This document shows, piece after piece, positions 26,049 to 33,733 of a DNA stretch of 33,733 bases. The translations under genes were made by a program, and so were the position numbers. The DNA comes from Candidatus Wildermuthbacteria bacterium RIFCSPHIGHO2_02_FULL_45_25 (GTDB lineage: Bacteria > Patescibacteriota > Minisyncoccia > Minisyncoccales > UBA10102): assembly GCA_001823215.1 (NCBI GenBank), contig MHTV01000010.1, positions 1 through 33,733 of the forward strand. The letters are read 5' to 3'. The notes beneath the pieces are model-generated. The model saw only the letters and a program-made list of their open reading frames with translations, was not told the DNA's origin and searched no databases. The first letter of the stretch is position 1. The number at the start of each line of letters is the position of its first letter.

Positions 26049-29000
26049 CTATTCCTCTTTTTGTTGTTTACCCTTGATTTCGATATTCAAGGCCAAAGAT
26101 CTCAATTCATTCAGTAAAAGATTAAAGGATGCGGGAAGGTTTGGCGTTTGGATCTGTTGCCCCCGCAGAATCGCTTCATACGTAGCGGCTCGACCCGGCA
26201 CATCATCTGATTTAATCGTCAACATCTCCTGCAAGACGTGAGCGGCCCCATACCCTTCCAATGCCCATACCTCCATTTCTCCGAATCTTTGTCCTCCGAA
26301 TTGCGCCTTCCCCCCTAATGGCTGTTGAGTAATTAAAGAGTAAGGTCCAATAGATCTCATGTGAATTTTATCCTCCACCATGTGGATAAGCTTCATCATA
26401 TAGATATATCCCACCGTAACTTTCTGGGGAAAAGAAGTTCCATCGCGTCCATCGTAGAGGGTTACTTTTCCGTCTTCGGGCAAACCTGCTTTGCGAAGTT
26501 CTTCTTTGATATCCTCTTCTGTTGCTCCTGATAATCCTGGCGTCAGCGCGGCATATCCTAATGTGTGCGCCGCCCATCCCAAGTGCGTTTCCAGAATTTG
26601 TCCGATATTCATACGCGAAGCTACTCCCAATGGGTTCAATACCACATCCACCGGAGTTCCATCTTCCATGTGAGGCATATCAGCCAACGGTAACACACGA
26701 GAAATAACTCCCTTGTTTCCGTGACGTCCCGCAAGCTTATCTCCCGGTTGAACGCGGCGCAACTCTGCGATTTCCACATGGATGCGCTTCATTACTCCCG
26801 GTTCCAATTTGTGTCCGGCTTCTCTGGAAAATACGCGCACATTCACCACCCGACCTCTCTTTCCATGAGGCATCAAAAGCGAAGTGTCTTTCACGTCACG
26901 CGCTTTTTCGCCAAAGATCGCCCGGAGCAATCTTTCTTCCGCAGTTAAATCAGCTTCTCCTTTGGGAGAGATTTTTCCAACCAGAATGTCGTTCGGGCCA
27001 ACTTCAGCTCCGATACGCACGATTCCCTCTTCGTCTAAATCTTTCAACTTTTCTTCGCTTACGTTCGGGATATCGGAAGTCGTAACTTCTGGCCCCAACT
27101 TTGTTTCGCGCACATCGCATACAAAATCCTCCAGGTGAATCGAAGTATAGATGTCGTCTCTCGCTACACGCTCTGACAGAATAATAGCATCTTCATAATT
27201 TCCTCCGCGCCAAGGGATAAATGCAACCAACAGGTTGGTTCCCAGCGCAAGACGGCCGTTATCAATTGCTCCGCCGTCTGCGATAACATCCCCTTTCTTT
27301 ACGATTGCTCCCTTTTGCACAATAGGCCGCTGATGGAAACATGTATATTGGTTTGTTCGCACAAAGTTCCGCAAATCATAGCGATGCTCTTTTTTCAAAC
27401 CGGATTTTTGAGGAGTATTTGACTTCATCACAATGTGGCTCGCATCCACTTCCTCTACTACTCCATCCTCTTCCGCCACAATTGCCAATCCGGAGTCTCG
27501 CGCCACGCGCCCCTCCAATCCTGTCCCTACCAACGGGGCCTGCGGACGAAGCAATGGAACTGCTTGCCGTTGCATATTCGATCCCATCAGCGCGCGGTTC
27601 GCATCGTCATTTCTCAAAAATGGGATCAGCCCGGTCGCAATAGAAATAAATTGCTGGGGCGACACATCCACAAAATTCACGCTCTCTCGAGGAGCAACTC
27701 CAGGATCTCCCTTCAAGCGGGCTTCCACGCGCTCATCTAAGATATTTCCCTTCTCGTCAATGCGGATTCCCGCCTGCGCGATTACATACTGCTCTTCCTC
27801 GTAGGCGGTTAAATATTCAACTTCTTTGCTCACGCGTCCGTTTTCAATTTTAAAATAAGGGGTTTCTAAAAATCCATAAGAGTTTACCCGAGCGTAAGAA
27901 GCCAAATGTCCTACCAGTCCGATATTCGGACCCTCCGGAGTTTCAATAGGACAAATTCTTCCGTAATGGCTTGGCTGCACGTCGCGGACTTCAAATCCCG
28001 CGCGCTCTCTGGTCAATCCTCCCGGGCCCGTGGCAGATACTCGGCGCTTATGTTCAAGCTCGGCCAATGGATTTTCGTTATCCATAAATTGCGTGATTTG
28101 CGAAGACGTAAAAAATTCTTTTACCACGGCCATCACTGGACGAGGGTTAATAAGCTGGCCCGGGGTAATAGTCGAAGGATCCAGCGTGGTCATGCGGTCT
28201 TTCACGATACGTTCCATGCGCATAAATCCAATTCGCATGCGGTTCTGGAGAAATTCCACGAATGTGCGCACGCGCCGGTTGCCCAAATGGTCAATTTGAT
28301 CTGGTTCCGCTCCCGGTTTATTATTCAATCGAATGACTTCCTTTAATACCTCAACCACATCTTCAAGTTTCAAGATTCGGTCTTCAAAAGACATATCCAC
28401 CCCTTCGTTGATTTTGGAAAATTTATCTTTCAATCCCGGAAGCCGCTGAAGAGTTTTCCACCGTCCTACGCGAGAAAGGTCATACCGCTCGAAGTTGAAA
28501 AACATATTATCAATGAGCTCGCGCGCTGTTTCTGGCGTTACATAATCTCCGGGACGCAGGCGGCGGTAAATTTCAACCAATCCTTCTCCTTGATTCTTAC
28601 TTGTGTCTTTGCGAAGCGTTTCTTCGATAAATGACACGTCTCCCGTATCCACATCGCGAAAAAGTTCCCGAATTTGCTCATCTGATTCAACGCCAAAAGC
28701 CCGTAACAATGTTGTTGCCGCGGCTTTTCTCTTGCGATCAATGCGAACCGCAATAAATCCGGATGATTCCGTTTCAAATTCCAGCCATGCTCCGCGGTTT
28801 GGAATAATTTTTGCTCCGAAAATCTTTCTTCCTTGCGGAGCTTGCGCGGTAAAAAATGCTCCCGGCGAACGAATAAGCTGGGAAATAGCTACGCGTTCCA
28901 CTCCATTGAGCACGAATGTTCCTCGCTCGGTCATTAATGGAAAATCGCAAAGATAGACTTCCTGCTCCTTTGCTTCCTTGGTTTTCAAGTTTACAAGACG

Positions 29001-29276
29001 AGTTTTCACACGCAAAGGCGCTTCAAACGAGTCGTCATTGCGCTTTGCCTCCATTTCGGTCGCGTAATTGGGTTCTCCGAGTTTATAATCTAAAAACCAC
29101 AACTCAAACTCTTTCTTCGTATAATCTCGAATCGGCGAAATCTCTTTAAACAGCTCTTTTAAATATTTATCCCAAAATTCCTCCCAGCATCGCATCTCCA
29201 AATCAAGGAGATATGGCAATTCGAGAGAGAGTTTGGACTTATCAAAACTCTTAAGGGGAAGAGATGAAGAAGTCAT
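26049..29276 (-). CDS. rpoB: RNA polymerase beta subunit
   Basis: Second large RNA polymerase subunit, forming the rifampicin-binding pocket and part of the DNA channel. 1075 residues, clearly shorter than the 1342 of E. coli but usual where the lineage-specific inserts are absent. The rifampicin region SSQITQFMDNENPLAELEHK is near residues 388-407, followed by RRVSATGPGGLTRERAGFEV. Also present are RICPIETPEGPNIGLVGHLA, the GDKLAGRHGNKGVIS motif, and the C-terminal GGKAQFGGQRFGEMEVWALE. Thr416 stands where E. coli has Leu533. A leader of about 165 bases lies between its promoter and the ATG. Confidence 0.98.
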   Translation of the reverse strand: MTSSSLPLKSFDKSKLSLELPYLLDLEMRCWEEFWDKYLKELFKEISPIRDYTKKEFELWFLDYKLGEPNYATEMEAKRNDDSFEAPLRVKTRLVNLKTKEAKEQEVYLCDFPLMTERGTFVLNGVERVAISQLIRSPGAFFTAQAPQGRKIFGAKIIPNRGAWLEFETESSGFIAVRIDRKRKAAATTLLRAFGVESDEQIRELFRDVDTGDVSFIEETLRKDTSKNQGEGLVEIYRRLRPGDYVTPETARELIDNMFFNFERYDLSRVGRWKTLQRLPGLKDKFSKINEGVDMSFEDRILKLEDVVEVLKEVIRLNNKPGAEPDQIDHLGNRRVRTFVEFLQNRMRIGFMRMERIVKDRMTTLDPSTITPGQLINPRPVMAVVKEFFTSSQITQFMDNENPLAELEHKRRVSATGPGGLTRERAGFEVRDVQPSHYGRICPIETPEGPNIGLVGHLASYARVNSYGFLETPYFKIENGRVSKEVEYLTAYEEEQYVIAQAGIRIDEKGNILDERVEARLKGDPGVAPRESVNFVDVSPQQFISIATGLIPFLRNDDANRALMGSNMQRQAVPLLRPQAPLVGTGLEGRVARDSGLAIVAEEDGVVEEVDASHIVMKSNTPQKSGLKKEHRYDLRNFVRTNQYTCFHQRPIVQKGAIVKKGDVIADGGAIDNGRLALGTNLLVAFIPWRGGNYEDAIILSERVARDDIYTSIHLEDFVCDVRETKLGPEVTTSDIPNVSEEKLKDLDEEGIVRIGAEVGPNDILVGKISPKGEADLTAEERLLRAIFGEKARDVKDTSLLMPHGKRGRVVNVRVFSREAGHKLEPGVMKRIHVEIAELRRVQPGDKLAGRHGNKGVISRVLPLADMPHMEDGTPVDVVLNPLGVASRMNIGQILETHLGWAAHTLGYAALTPGLSGATEEDIKEELRKAGLPEDGKVTLYDGRDGTSFPQKVTVGYIYMMKLIHMVEDKIHMRSIGPYSLITQQPLGGKAQFGGQRFGEMEVWALEGYGAAHVLQEMLTIKSDDVPGRAATYEAILRGQQIQTPNLPASFNLLLNELRSLALNIEIKGKQQKEE

Positions 29277-29644: not shown

Positions 29645-30715
29645 CTATATAGCGCTTTGCCGCCGGCGCAAGAAGAAAAGCGCTCCCCCCCCGATAATCG
29701 CCGCAAGAATCGGCAGACTGATGAATCCTAACATCATGGGAGACGGCAATTGGAATCCCTCCAACAAAACACGTGCACTCTTGGCCGGAGTTGGAGAGGG
29801 TGAAGGCGAGGATACAGGTTCCCCCGCAATTGGCTGAAGCTCATTGCCACTGGCTTTCTTCCCTGCGGAATCCGTACTCAAAGGAGCGATATAGTAAGAT
29901 ATTCCTTTTCCTACGCCGGGCACAACGATTTCATGTGTGGTTGTCAATCCTCCGTCAATCACTATAAAATCATAATCTCCGGGGGCAACGCCGTATTGTA
30001 CCCATGAGTCAGCTTCTCTATTGGTTTCCCATGTTACTTTTATCTGGTCATCTGCAATCCACAGGGCAGAAGTATTGATCACCAATAAAGCACCCTCGTT
30101 TTTTGGTGTCGGAGTCGCTGAAGCAGAAACTGTTGGTGTCCTGGTAGGAGTTGGAGTTGATGCAATCGGAGTAGTCGAAGTCGGCCGCGGCGCGCTTGTT
30201 GCAGACGGAGAAGGCACAGGAATCGGGGTTTGAAGATCATATACTCCCTTGCCCGAAGCCCCGAGGTTCCATATATTCTGGTTATCTGAATTCCGAAGCA
30301 CTGCGGAATCCGCATTAAACACAATGGTTGCCGTACCTGTTGCCTTGACGCGAAAAGTTACTGCCGCAATCTCTTGGATTCCGGAGAATCCTGGAGATGG
30401 TTCCCCGCCGGAAATCTGAATAAGCCCGTTTCTTACTTCTTTCTCCGCGAATAAAGTCATCACTGACCTGGACGTGTCCACTCCGGTTGCTTCCAACTGA
30501 TCTTGCGGATATGAAAGGTATGCAGCCACCGCATTCACTTGCTCTCCCCCTGTATTCACCATAATTTTCATCTGGAACGTTTGCCCCGGATTGAATACGG
30601 CATTACCCGGTGTTACATACAACATCGCGCTTTGCGCGCGCGCGATAGAAACAATTCCACATGACCACACGCACGCGCTCAATAAGACAAGGATTCCGAA
30701 AGAAAGAAAACGCAT
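29645..30715 (-). CDS. Membrane-anchored cohesin-domain surface protein
   Basis: Secreted protein of 356 residues. A signal peptide ends near residue 27 (ARAQS). A cohesin-type beta-sandwich covers about 30-165 (LYVTPGNAVFNPGQTFQMKI, AAYLSYPQDQLEATGVDTSR, AAVTFRVKATGTATI). A Pro/Thr/Ser linker (165-204) leads to a second beta domain of Fn3/phosphatase-N type (about 208-298, IKVTWETNREADSWVQYG). A Pro/Ser linker, one transmembrane helix (329-349) and FLRRRQ complete the protein. This leaves the cohesin outside and anchored. It is the third cohesin gene in the run, 68 bases after the dockerin-bearing one. A possible promoter TTGGGT-N17-TATAAC is 15 bases before the ATG. Its partner is unknown. 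Confidence 0.85.
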   Translation of the reverse strand: MRFLSFGILVLLSACVWSCGIVSIARAQSAMLYVTPGNAVFNPGQTFQMKIMVNTGGEQVNAVAAYLSYPQDQLEATGVDTSRSVMTLFAEKEVRNGLIQISGGEPSPGFSGIQEIAAVTFRVKATGTATIVFNADSAVLRNSDNQNIWNLGASGKGVYDLQTPIPVPSPSATSAPRPTSTTPIASTPTPTRTPTVSASATPTPKNEGALLVINTSALWIADDQIKVTWETNREADSWVQYGVAPGDYDFIVIDGGLTTTHEIVVPGVGKGISYYIAPLSTDSAGKKASGNELQPIAGEPVSSPSPSPTPAKSARVLLEGFQLPSPMMLGFISLPILAAIIGGGALFFLRRRQSAI

Positions 30716-30783
30716 ACAATAATTACATAAGTTATATATCTCATTGTATCACAACCCAAGAACCTACGACAATTGTGAATTTC

Positions 30784-32745
30784 TCAAAGCTTTGTCCAAT
30801 GGCTCAACATGATGCTAAAATCAAGAATCGAAATTTTTGCATCGCCATTCAGATCGCATGTCGAGACATCCTGTTTCCACCTAGACAAGAGCATGCTTAA
30901 ATCGAACACATTTACTTTCCCATCATTGTTGCAATCGCCGCTCACCGATCCTCCTCCCCCTGGATTTGGAGTTGCCGTTGGCGTAGGCGCGGGAATATAA
31001 TCTCCTCCTCCCCCTCCTCCGCCGCCTCCCCCTCCTCCGACGGAGGAAGAAGATACATCTTGTCCAGACGAAGCATCCACATTGAATTCAATTGGATAAT
31101 CGCTCGCATTTGAATTGCCAGCCGCATCCTTGCACCGAATATAAAAATGGTAGCTATTGCCAGAACTTACCGCAACATCGGCGCGATGCAAAGTGGATCC
31201 TGTAACGGAGAATGCCCGCGACATAGAATCATACGAAACATCCGAACTTTCAGAATAACGACATGAAGCGTTTTCATCGGTTATAATTTCAAGAGAAGCG
31301 TCAGTCGAAGAACCAGACAGAGTACCCGAAGGGCTTCCACTGGAACGCGAAGGAGCAATCGTATCGAGCGACGGAGTTGGCGTGGGCGTTGCGGTCGGAG
31401 TAGATGTTGGTGTTGGAGTAGGCGTTGGACTATCTGTAGGCCCAGGCGTACCTGTTGGTGTGGGTGTCGCAGTCGGGGTCGGCGTGGGTGTAGGAGTAGG
31501 AGTTGGCGTAGGTGTCGGAGCCAAAGCAATGGAAAAATCAATCGGAAAATCACTTCCGTTTTTGTTGTCGAGCGCATCTGCGCATCGCACAAAATATGAA
31601 TATGAATTCCCTTCAGACAGTCCGGTTATCTGAATTGAATGCAACGCTGTTCCGCTCCCGGAAAACGTATTTGTCATCGCGTCATAGCCTGTTCCCGCGC
31701 TTTCCGAATACTTGCATGTGGCCACTTCATCGGTCGTCAAAGAAAGTGTCGAGGAACTCGTGCCTGCCGACAACGTGCCCGATGGAGATCCACCGGAGCG
31801 CGAAGGAGCGATGCTGTCTAGCACAATATTGTCTGACACGATTATGGTGTTTTGGTTTGCGCTATTGTCCCGGCATTCATAATTGACAAATTTTGTCCCG
31901 TTTCCGCTCGTTAACGTCCATGCCTTGCTCGCGGCAAACGGCTCAAATGTTTCCGTGTCAAACACGCCATCATTCGAGTATCTTACATCTTTCACACCGC
32001 TTGCGTCCGTACAGCTAAGCGTGAGTGTAACCGAAGCGCTTGTCGCGGTCGAAGCCCCTCCATTGATACTGATTGAAGCCGCGGGAGCAGTTATGTCAGG
32101 AACAAAAAGCGTATAACTTCCCGCGCAATTCGCATGATTTGTCTTTGCGCATCCGCCCGAGGGCAAAGCATCCGTATCATCCCCGCGCAACGCAAGCACA
32201 TTGGCAGTGTCGTACGTCACTTGAGCTATCCCAGCGGCTTTGACCTGAAATGTAATAACCGCCGCCAACGGACTGCTGCCACCCGTGCCCTGATTGCCAG
32301 GCGCGGGCTCTGCCTGCTGAAGTTGAATTCTTCCCGTTGTGTTATCGAAACTTTTCTCAATCGCATTGTAGTCAAAAACGCTCGAAGATGTATCAATGCT
32401 GATAACCGACAGCAAGGCGGGATCAAAATTAAGATACGCTTTCAATGAAGTAATATTGACCGTTGAAGGAACATACAAACTCACCATCAACGTGCTTCCC
32501 ACAGCGACATCCCCGATTCCCGGTTCCAGAAAAAATTCCGCAGAATTTGCTCCCGGCGCTACCGCCGCAGTTAAGAATTGGGGCGAAACTCGAAACGTAG
32601 CCGCAAAATAATTCAAACGAGCCAAGAATGAATCTCCGAGTATCCATCCGGAAGCAATCGCGCCTGCCGCAACAACGGCAACAACAAGCGCATCGAATTT
32701 ACATAGTCGAACATTCATAGGATTTCTTGGAATTATATTCGTCAC
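30784..32745 (-). CDS. Scaffoldin-like protein with cohesin, Ig-like repeats and dockerin
   Basis: 653 residues from a GTG; an ATG at 32718 (residue 10) is an equally good start. Order: N-terminal hydrophobic segment (19-38), cohesin (about 68-215, LKAYLNFDPALLSVISIDTS), Ig-like domain (217-310), first DTIAPSRS-type repeat (310-408), Thr-Pro linker (409-459), second repeat (461-558), poly-Gly (570-581), Pro-rich linker, and a C-terminal type I dockerin (about 602-650). The dockerin has two calcium loops: DCNNDGKVNVFD and DLNGDAKISILD, each followed by an LS(M/I)-LLS-W helix. Cohesin and dockerin in one chain allow chain-to-chain assembly. It starts 11 bases after the previous cohesin gene. 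Confidence 0.88.
   Translation of the reverse strand: MTNIIPRNPMNVRLCKFDALVVAVVAAGAIASGWILGDSFLARLNYFAATFRVSPQFLTAAVAPGANSAEFFLEPGIGDVAVGSTLMVSLYVPSTVNITSLKAYLNFDPALLSVISIDTSSSVFDYNAIEKSFDNTTGRIQLQQAEPAPGNQGTGGSSPLAAVITFQVKAAGIAQVTYDTANVLALRGDDTDALPSGGCAKTNHANCAGSYTLFVPDITAPAASISINGGASTATSASVTLTLSCTDASGVKDVRYSNDGVFDTETFEPFAASKAWTLTSGNGTKFVNYECRDNSANQNTIIVSDNIVLDSIAPSRSGGSPSGTLSAGTSSSTLSLTTDEVATCKYSESAGTGYDAMTNTFSGSGTALHSIQITGLSEGNSYSYFVRCADALDNKNGSDFPIDFSIALAPTPTPTPTPTPTPTPTATPTPTGTPGPTDSPTPTPTPTSTPTATPTPTPSLDTIAPSRSSGSPSGTLSGSSTDASLEIITDENASCRYSESSDVSYDSMSRAFSVTGSTLHRADVAVSSGNSYHFYIRCKDAAGNSNASDYPIEFNVDASSGQDVSSSSVGGGGGGGGGGGGDYIPAPTPTATPNPGGGGSVSGDCNNDGKVNVFDLSMLLSRWKQDVSTCDLNGDAKISILDFSIMLSHWTKL
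31003..31038 (-). repeat. Poly-glycine tract in the scaffoldin-like gene
   Basis: Twelve consecutive Gly codons (residues 570-581) just before the dockerin, acting as a flexible hinge. Confidence 0.9.
31369..31521 (-). repeat. Thr-Pro tandem repeat in the scaffoldin-like gene
   Basis: About 150 bases of degenerate hexamer ACNCCN units encode the PT-rich linker at residues 409-459. Such tracts vary in copy number easily. Confidence 0.9.
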
Positions 32746-32756
32746 TCAATCTGCCC

Positions 32757-33584
32757 TCACAAACCAAGTTGCGCGATATATGCTCTTGTTCCTGATCCAA
32801 AATATCCCGTTCCTTTCATCAGCCCAAGCGGATACAGAATTGCGCCTGCATACGCTTCTTGAAAACGAACCACGGCGGCCGATGTTAACAATCCGAAGTA
32901 ATCTGTTTCATTCCCGGGAGAACCCGCGCCCGCGCCCGCCACCAGAAATCCTTGAGAATTCAAAAATTGCTGAAGAGCTTCCACGTCAGCTCCCATGTTT
33001 CCTATCTGAAGATTGCGAGTAAACGATGAGAAACCGCCCGGTGTTTCCCCGTCTGTAATTGCAATTGTTGTTTGGACATTTCCATTGGAAAGCACATTTT
33101 CATCGGTTGCATTTAAGACAATTGATCCCGGGGCCATTGAAACCGCGGCTGTTCCCGGACGAACCGTACGGAAGGTAATTTTTGCAACCCGAACCTTGTC
33201 TCCTGAAATTCCAGGCAAGGGCGCTGAACCCTGGAGATTAATCCTTGCCAAAGAACCGGACTCTTTCACATGAGTGGTATCCCACCAATAAGGAAACTCG
33301 CTTGAAACAGTATCAATGCCAGCTACCGACAGCATCGTTGGATCATACGTCAAAGATGTTTGGAATGAGGTAACTGGCATACCCGTATTCAGCAGGAAAT
33401 CCACCGCCACAAGCTGATTCATTTTTCCTGACACCGATTGAGGCACGAGAGAAAACATCGCGCTTCCATTATTCCCGCGCGTAGACATCATGCCAGGGGC
33501 GTATGTTTGCGCCGCAGCCACAACAGGAATGCCGGCGACTGTCAGAGCCAAACTGCTGAATATTGCGATTATTTTTTTCTTCAT
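32757..33584 (-). CDS. Secreted cohesin-domain protein with peptidoglycan-binding domain
   Basis: 275 residues. The signal peptide has KKK, a hydrophobic core and a cleavage site near VAAAQ (residue 26). A cohesin-like domain covers about 41-175 (FSLVPQSVSGKMNQLVAVDF, SLTYDPTMLSVAGIDTVSSE, AKITFRTVRPGTAAVSM). A PG_binding_1 module follows at about 188-273 (LQIGNMGADVEALQQFLNSQ, AAVVRFQEAYA, GLMKGTGYFGSGTRAYI), ending the protein. The module has the same pattern as the one inserted in the peptide-binding protein at 11089-13125. This suggests a cohesin held at the cell wall. It is 64 bases after the stop of the dockerin gene upstream; no Shine-Dalgarno sequence is present. It lacks a membrane helix. 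Confidence 0.85.
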   Translation of the reverse strand: MKKKIIAIFSSLALTVAGIPVVAAAQTYAPGMMSTRGNNGSAMFSLVPQSVSGKMNQLVAVDFLLNTGMPVTSFQTSLTYDPTMLSVAGIDTVSSEFPYWWDTTHVKESGSLARINLQGSAPLPGISGDKVRVAKITFRTVRPGTAAVSMAPGSIVLNATDENVLSNGNVQTTIAITDGETPGGFSSFTRNLQIGNMGADVEALQQFLNSQGFLVAGAGAGSPGNETDYFGLLTSAAVVRFQEAYAGAILYPLGLMKGTGYFGSGTRAYIAQLGL

Positions 33585-33648
33585 AGAAACTTCGTTTTTA
33601 TTTCTTATAATACGCGCATCTTCCGATATTTCGCATCCTCCCGCCTAT

Positions 33649-33733
33649 CTACCTCGACCAGTTCGCCATCATCTTGTTCACATCATAGATGTCAACCTTG
33701 CTGTCCGGCAGTCCTCCTGGGCCGTTGACATCT
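33649..33733 (-). CDS. C-terminal end of a dockerin protein (partial)
   Basis: The minus-strand frame entering from the window edge reads DVNGPGGLPDSKVDIYDVNK then MMANWSR and a TAG stop. This is the second half of a type I dockerin: calcium loop D-x-N-x-D-x-K-x-D-x-x-D, then the hydrophobic helix VNKMMANW. Five residues (PGGLP) are inserted in the loop between Gly4 and Asp5, which is unusual. It is the gene before the three cohesin genes, on the same strand, so the operon continues outside the window. Only 27 residues are visible, so nothing can be said of its main domain. Confidence 0.7.
   Translation of the reverse strand, partial: DVNGPGGLPDSKVDIYDVNKMMANWSR

Follow-up and report, generated by a model that had tools for sequence, protein, structure and literature searches.

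A cohesin-dockerin gene cluster upstream of rpoB in a Wildermuthbacteria genome, a candidate surface docking apparatus

Cohesin and dockerin modules are known from the clostridial cellulosomes (CipA, SdbA, OlpA and similar), where membrane- or wall-anchored cohesins, adaptor chains with both a cohesin and a dockerin, and dockerin-tagged multi-domain enzymes are found, the dockerins having type I calcium loops. Cohesins are also found outside cellulosomes, as in Archaeoglobus fulgidus (2xdh) and Clostridium perfringens (2vo8, 2jh2). Here we describe a cluster of such genes in a contig of 33,733 bases (C10), which in its whole length is the window analysed, from an 868-kb genome (97% complete) of Wildermuthbacteria, a group of Patescibacteria placed in Parcubacteria (NCBI taxonomy). 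In a search with rpoB among named genomes, Candidatus Wildermuthbacteria and similar Parcubacteria were nearest to the window. Upstream of rpoB the window holds three complete minus-strand cohesin genes, followed at the contig end by the 3'-terminal 27 codons of a fourth. We propose, with moderate confidence and from sequence and predicted structure, that the locus is a small cohesin-dockerin surface docking apparatus, the cargo of which would include large secreted wall- or polymer-active enzymes. In the following, G000 is the window's own genome, other G numbers are relatives and L numbers are examined loci.

Patescibacteria cohesins and dockerins have previously been reported in passing. 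One paper mentions cohesin and dockerin genes in Microgenomates (Candidatus Shapirobacterales, with Candidatus Roizmanbacterium cited there; PMC9123182), and a second names the dockerin protein SEML1_0315 as an essential surface protein of a cultivated patescibacterium, for which host-glycan adhesion or degradation is speculated (PMC10633639). Both concern the same module families and, in the passages accessible, presence, expression or essentiality only. In the accessible portions of the open-licence literature we found no account of the operon structure, anchor exchange or enzyme cargo described below, and the same literature yielded no paper joining cohesin, dockerin and Parcubacteria, nor one describing the Pam pilus of the candidate phyla radiation (NF058581, NF058579), whose pilin-like genes stand, in other families of the order, in one operon with cohesins and dockerins.

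Cohesin and dockerin genes upstream of rpoB

The initial annotation had read neighbouring minus-strand cohesin and dockerin genes at this place and proposed Pfam profiles as a check, and its genes were borne out as open reading frames and by Pfam, a family profile and the predicted fold (Table 1). Against the Pfam curated cut-offs (24.1 bits for cohesin PF00963, 22.9 for dockerin PF00404 and 23 for PG_binding_1 PF01471), the protein with cohesin A scored 27.1 bits for cohesin (29.6 bits in the scan of its own genome), and the adaptor, which carries cohesin B, scored 25.7 bits for cohesin and 31.8 bits for dockerin. The Pfam check thus agreed for the cohesin in two proteins and for the dockerin of the adaptor, and failed for the third protein, where cohesin C gave just 15.8 bits while PG_binding_1 gave 36.6 bits. 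Cohesin C, the weakest of the three, is nevertheless detected at 60 bits (E=2.4e-16) by a profile of its relatives trained without it; it is modelled by AlphaFold2 (AF2) with a predicted local distance difference test score of about 96, and all 50 of the 50 PDB matches listed by Foldseek for this model are cohesins, non-cellulosomal ones included, with 2xdh and 2vo8 among the top matches. In a profile search of the PDB, 12 of 14 matches were cohesin or scaffoldin chains. Chance domain calls were ruled out by shuffled proteins, which gave no hits, by the leave-one-out profile and by the cohesin fold. By Pfam and the local family hidden Markov model (HMM) together, genome G000 has three cohesins in all, two of them above the Pfam cut-off.

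The dockerin of the adaptor shows the duplicated calcium-binding loop-helix of type I dockerins, with both loops canonical. Different anchors had been suggested for the proteins, and this is supported by the C-terminal hydrophobic helix behind cohesin A and the peptidoglycan-binding domain behind cohesin C. The adaptor had been read as a bridging chain; cohesin and dockerin are indeed both present on it, but given its N-terminal hydrophobic helix it may itself be anchored in the membrane and not be a free bridge.

Table 1. Features of the cohesin-dockerin cluster and of its conserved neighbour (positions in the window)
Feature	Coordinates	Strand	Basis or remark
rpoB	26049..29276	-	downstream position conserved in G009, G013 and G023 (same family), also in G030 and G042 (family f3)
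Cohesin protein with N-terminal signal/transmembrane (TM) segment and C-terminal TM helix (group A)	29645..30715	-	Pfam PF00963
C-terminal TM helix (amino acids about 323-341), then short positively charged tail	29693..29749	-	hydropathy scan, sequence
Cohesin domain A (amino acids 34-141)	30293..30616	-	local family HMM, 102 bits
Cohesin, immunoglobulin-like/Pro-Thr linkers and C-terminal dockerin, with N-terminal hydrophobic helix (adaptor)	30784..32745	-	Pfam
Dockerin (amino acids 603-651) with both repeats of the calcium loop canonical, GDCNNDGKVNVFDLSMLLSRW / CDLNGDAKISILDFSIMLSHW	30793..30939	-	Pfam and relatives' dockerins
Cohesin domain B (amino acids 73-186)	32188..32529	-	local family HMM, 80 bits
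Cohesin with C-terminal PG_binding_1 (group C)	32757..33584	-	Pfam, leave-one-out HMM, AF2, Foldseek
Peptidoglycan-binding domain	32769..33026	-	Pfam PF01471, local HMM
Cohesin domain C (amino acids 46-158)	33111..33449	-	leave-one-out and local family HMM, AF2, Foldseek
3' end of truncated gene, second half of X-dockerin cassette (27 amino acids and stop)	33649..33732	-	contig edge

The gaps within the cluster are about 65, 12 and 69 bases, and about 370 bases separate it from rpoB. The remaining scanned genes of the window are ordinary (chaperonin, uvrA, uvrC, ftsK, RNase J, M48, LemA and others).

Pfam cohesins are present in 7 of the 25 genomes of the family, and the order short cohesin, cohesin with dockerin, cohesin with TM helix and rpoB recurs in G013, G023 and G009, the last having a dockerin enzyme and a pseudopilin-like gene between the short cohesin and the cohesin-dockerin gene. 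A maximum-likelihood tree unites the protein with cohesin A with counterparts of G009, G013, G023 and G026 (orthologs L021_3454, L022_9148, L023_3571 and L075_10136, support 100/99), and cohesin C with short cohesins of G009, G013, G022 and G023 (94/92), while leaving the grouping of the middle cohesin without resolved placement. The relatives of cohesin C terminate in a TM helix whereas the window protein terminates in a peptidoglycan-binding domain, and the anchor has therefore been exchanged: the cohesin stayed in position as its membrane helix gave way to a peptidoglycan-binding domain. G030, from another family, also has a cohesin with such a domain immediately in front of rpoB.

In the wider order, cohesins occur in 64 and dockerins in 84 of 230 genomes, and both in 44 (odds ratio 6.9, p=7e-10); for the phylum as a whole, cohesins were seen in 82 of 287 sampled genomes. 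Of 65 cohesin loci examined in the order, 51 have a dockerin gene as their immediate upstream neighbour on the same strand, mostly no more than 100 bases away, and as there are few dockerin genes among several hundred genes per genome, chance adjacency would account for well under one per cent. The dockerin-cohesin gene pair is clearly kept together, which, with the three orthologous cohesins in relatives, favours the cohesin-dockerin surface assembly suggested initially. Proteins with two or three dockerins were seen in G129-G134 and others of the order, genomes with no Pfam cohesin match.

The truncated dockerin gene and the proposed cargo of relatives

The visible part of the gene cut by the contig end at 33733 reads DVNGPGGLPDSKVDIYDVNKMMANWSR-stop. 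The dockerin tail noticed there is real, though truncated to the second half of a dockerin: it is the second repeat with a loop insertion, the only repeat visible. Of its 27 residues, 21 are identical to the X-dockerin cassettes at the end of the dockerin enzymes of G023, and aligned with the C-terminus of the G009 enzyme the tail is 60% identical (E 5e-4). The truncated gene may encode an enzyme like the X-dockerin proteins of the relatives.

The X-dockerin cassette, of about 165 amino acids, is common to five proteins with different N-termini, namely the G009 enzyme, two G023 proteins, a protein at a contig edge in G013 and a protein on contig C38 of G000 itself, which has 966 amino acids and of which the N-terminal part matches DUF7483 only. 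Differing functional parts on one common dockerin are what would be expected of a docking system. Two more dockerin-like proteins are encoded on contig C30 of the window's genome (L019:3975-6248 and L019:7980-12065); in one of them the dockerin is internal and strong (46.5 bits) and is accompanied by Kre9-like domains, and a transposase-like gene was noted nearby by eye.

The dockerin-bearing proteins of the relatives are of 1,500-2,050 residues and have M23-like, chitin-deacetylase-like and GH-A-clan glycosidase domains. The enzyme of G009 (2053 residues) is encoded inside the cohesin cluster and matches chitin deacetylase 5z34 (E 7e-6), GH51 arabinofuranosidase (E 1e-4), the GH79 N-terminal domain (GH79n) and malectin. 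The two X-dockerin enzymes of G023, one 1501 residues long and the other at least 1715, are on a contig other than that of the cohesin cluster. The glycosidase parts, combined in one profile, find GH44/GH79 structures at 3e-10, and the N-terminal parts, combined in another, find M23 peptidases at 2e-6, with the HxxxD and HxH residues invariant. M23-like, chitin-deacetylase-like and GH-A-clan glycosidase parts are followed by a terminal X-dockerin on one secreted chain at L196:5329-15000 (G023:C2) and L023:7091-13252 (G009); the 1501-residue G023 protein showed no deacetylase part. The pseudopilin-like gene inside the G009 cluster (L023:6480-7064) resembles type IV pseudopilins (GFTLFELLIVVVIIG).

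For these enzymes of the relatives the predicted substrates are polymers of the cell wall or outside the cell, and with M23 and deacetylase domains present, walls are a more likely target than cellulose. From the visible absence of a glycosidase the initial annotation had argued for attachment or an S-layer-like coat instead of degradation. That argument is not supported, because the dockerin gene runs off the contig, which would explain the missing glycosidase, and the matching dockerins of close relatives are borne by predicted enzymes.

Proposed surface docking and its alternatives

In the proposed apparatus, cohesins would be fixed sockets, cohesin A in the membrane and cohesin C on the peptidoglycan. 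The adaptor, with cohesin and dockerin on one chain, would extend or cross-link the set, and dockerin proteins from the adjoining gene and from elsewhere in the genome would plug in as exchangeable cargo; the cohesins of the window are thus expected to bind these dockerins. In the window's family the cargo would, at least partly, be multi-domain enzymes retained at the cell surface by the cohesins. Its catalytic activity would be directed against a host cell or dead biomass.

Several observations weigh against this proposal. The catalytic part of the cut gene is beyond the contig edge, and its continuation was not found in the G000 assembly. The X-dockerin protein on contig C38 has no recognised enzyme domain, and dockerin proteins in other families of the order are mostly small and non-enzymatic. 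The cohesin loci are related, so that shared ancestry inflates the association counts given above. Finally, a natural read-through fusion of neighbouring dockerin and cohesin genes from relative G092 (L086), modelled by AF2 as one chain, gave confident domains but a predicted TM-score of 0.61, with no confident docking, which is a weak test since the domains are separated by a hydrophobic signal segment; Foldseek with this model returned cohesins again.

The alternative that survives best, which we regard as possible though rather unlikely, is that the pair is a non-enzymatic tether, anchoring a surface filament or layer for host attachment, for instance a Pam-like pilus or part of a type IV pilus. 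The usual operon in other families of the order consists of a gene for a small, Big_6-containing dockerin protein and then 1-5 cohesin-TM genes, with WxLIP/DUF916-like and Pam-pilin-like proteins upstream (examples among L225-L232 are L230:1-7955, L231:7012-13056 and L232:7624-17591), and the cohesin-dockerin pair may there tether the pilus. Pam pilin matches, most of them below the curated cut-off, were obtained in 24 genomes, and in 13 of these the pilin is no more than 12 kb away from a cohesin. In G026 (L075:784-13084), judged by eye, the orthologous cluster of cohesins also comes after type-IV-pilus-like genes (PilB, PilC, pseudopilins, PilM) and before LemA- and M48-like genes. On the other hand, Pam pilin (NF058581) has no match in G000, for which membership in the Pam system was rejected, the dockerins of the closest relatives are borne by enzymes, and Pam operons without cohesins exist (G203 and G224; L226 and L227). 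NF058580 was discarded as a Pam neighbour family, as it is an unrelated lipase.

It is improbable that the two folds are present without binding each other, serving instead other contacts (glycans, self-assembly or calcium-stabilised stalks). The docking result for the G092 fusion would fit such a reading, and the correlation of neighbouring dockerin and cohesin distances (r=0.73, p=0.0002) is equally given by common descent; the tight and repeated dockerin-then-cohesin gene order, the co-occurrence in genomes, the canonical duplicated calcium loops and nearest folds that are cohesins solved together with dockerins all speak for binding. A genuine cellulosome degrading plant polymers is very hard to reconcile with a single cohesin per chain and no multi-cohesin scaffoldin, with no cellulose-binding module on any complete protein of the cluster (three proteins, by Pfam; no genome-wide search was made), with so few cohesins genome-wide and with M23 and deacetylase domains that fit walls rather than cellulose, even though the relatives' dockerin enzymes have GH51/GH79-like and deacetylase domains and the modules of Candidatus Shapirobacterales were read as a cellulosome in PMC9123182.

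Returning to the surface docking apparatus, it may be speculated, quite tentatively, that it is one form of a general cohesin-dockerin surface platform of Patescibacteria, on which Pam-like pili would be mounted in some and wall-degrading multi-domain enzymes in the Wildermuthbacteria group. If true, this would be a modular device for ultrasmall epibionts to hold and digest hosts or dead biomass. For the question of how ultrasmall Patescibacteria attach to and feed on other cells, the locus supplies specific surface proteins that can be put to the test: three differently anchored cohesins, defined dockerin partners, and the relatives' predicted peptidoglycan- or polysaccharide-active enzymes with a matching dockerin.

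Comparison with known systems

The locus shares with the clostridial cellulosomes the cohesin fold and the other traits named at the outset, the dockerin-tagged enzymes being here those predicted in relatives. It differs from them in having one cohesin per chain, no CBM3 (carbohydrate-binding module) seen and very few components, and the scaffoldin-like reading of the initial annotation does not extend to a scaffoldin in the strict sense, with many cohesins on one chain. Instead of the clostridial surface-layer homology or sortase anchors there is a TM helix or PG_binding_1, and the enzyme set is apparently wall-directed. As to the Pam pilus system, the difference lies in the lack of a Pam pilin match in G000 and in the existence of Pam operons without cohesins.

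With cohesin and dockerin modules on predicted secreted or surface proteins outside a cellulosome, the window is best classed among the non-cellulosomal systems, in common with Archaeoglobus and C. perfringens. In contrast to those cases, the operon described here is conserved over many genomes, comprises several differently anchored cohesins and is accompanied by a series of X-dockerin cargo proteins.

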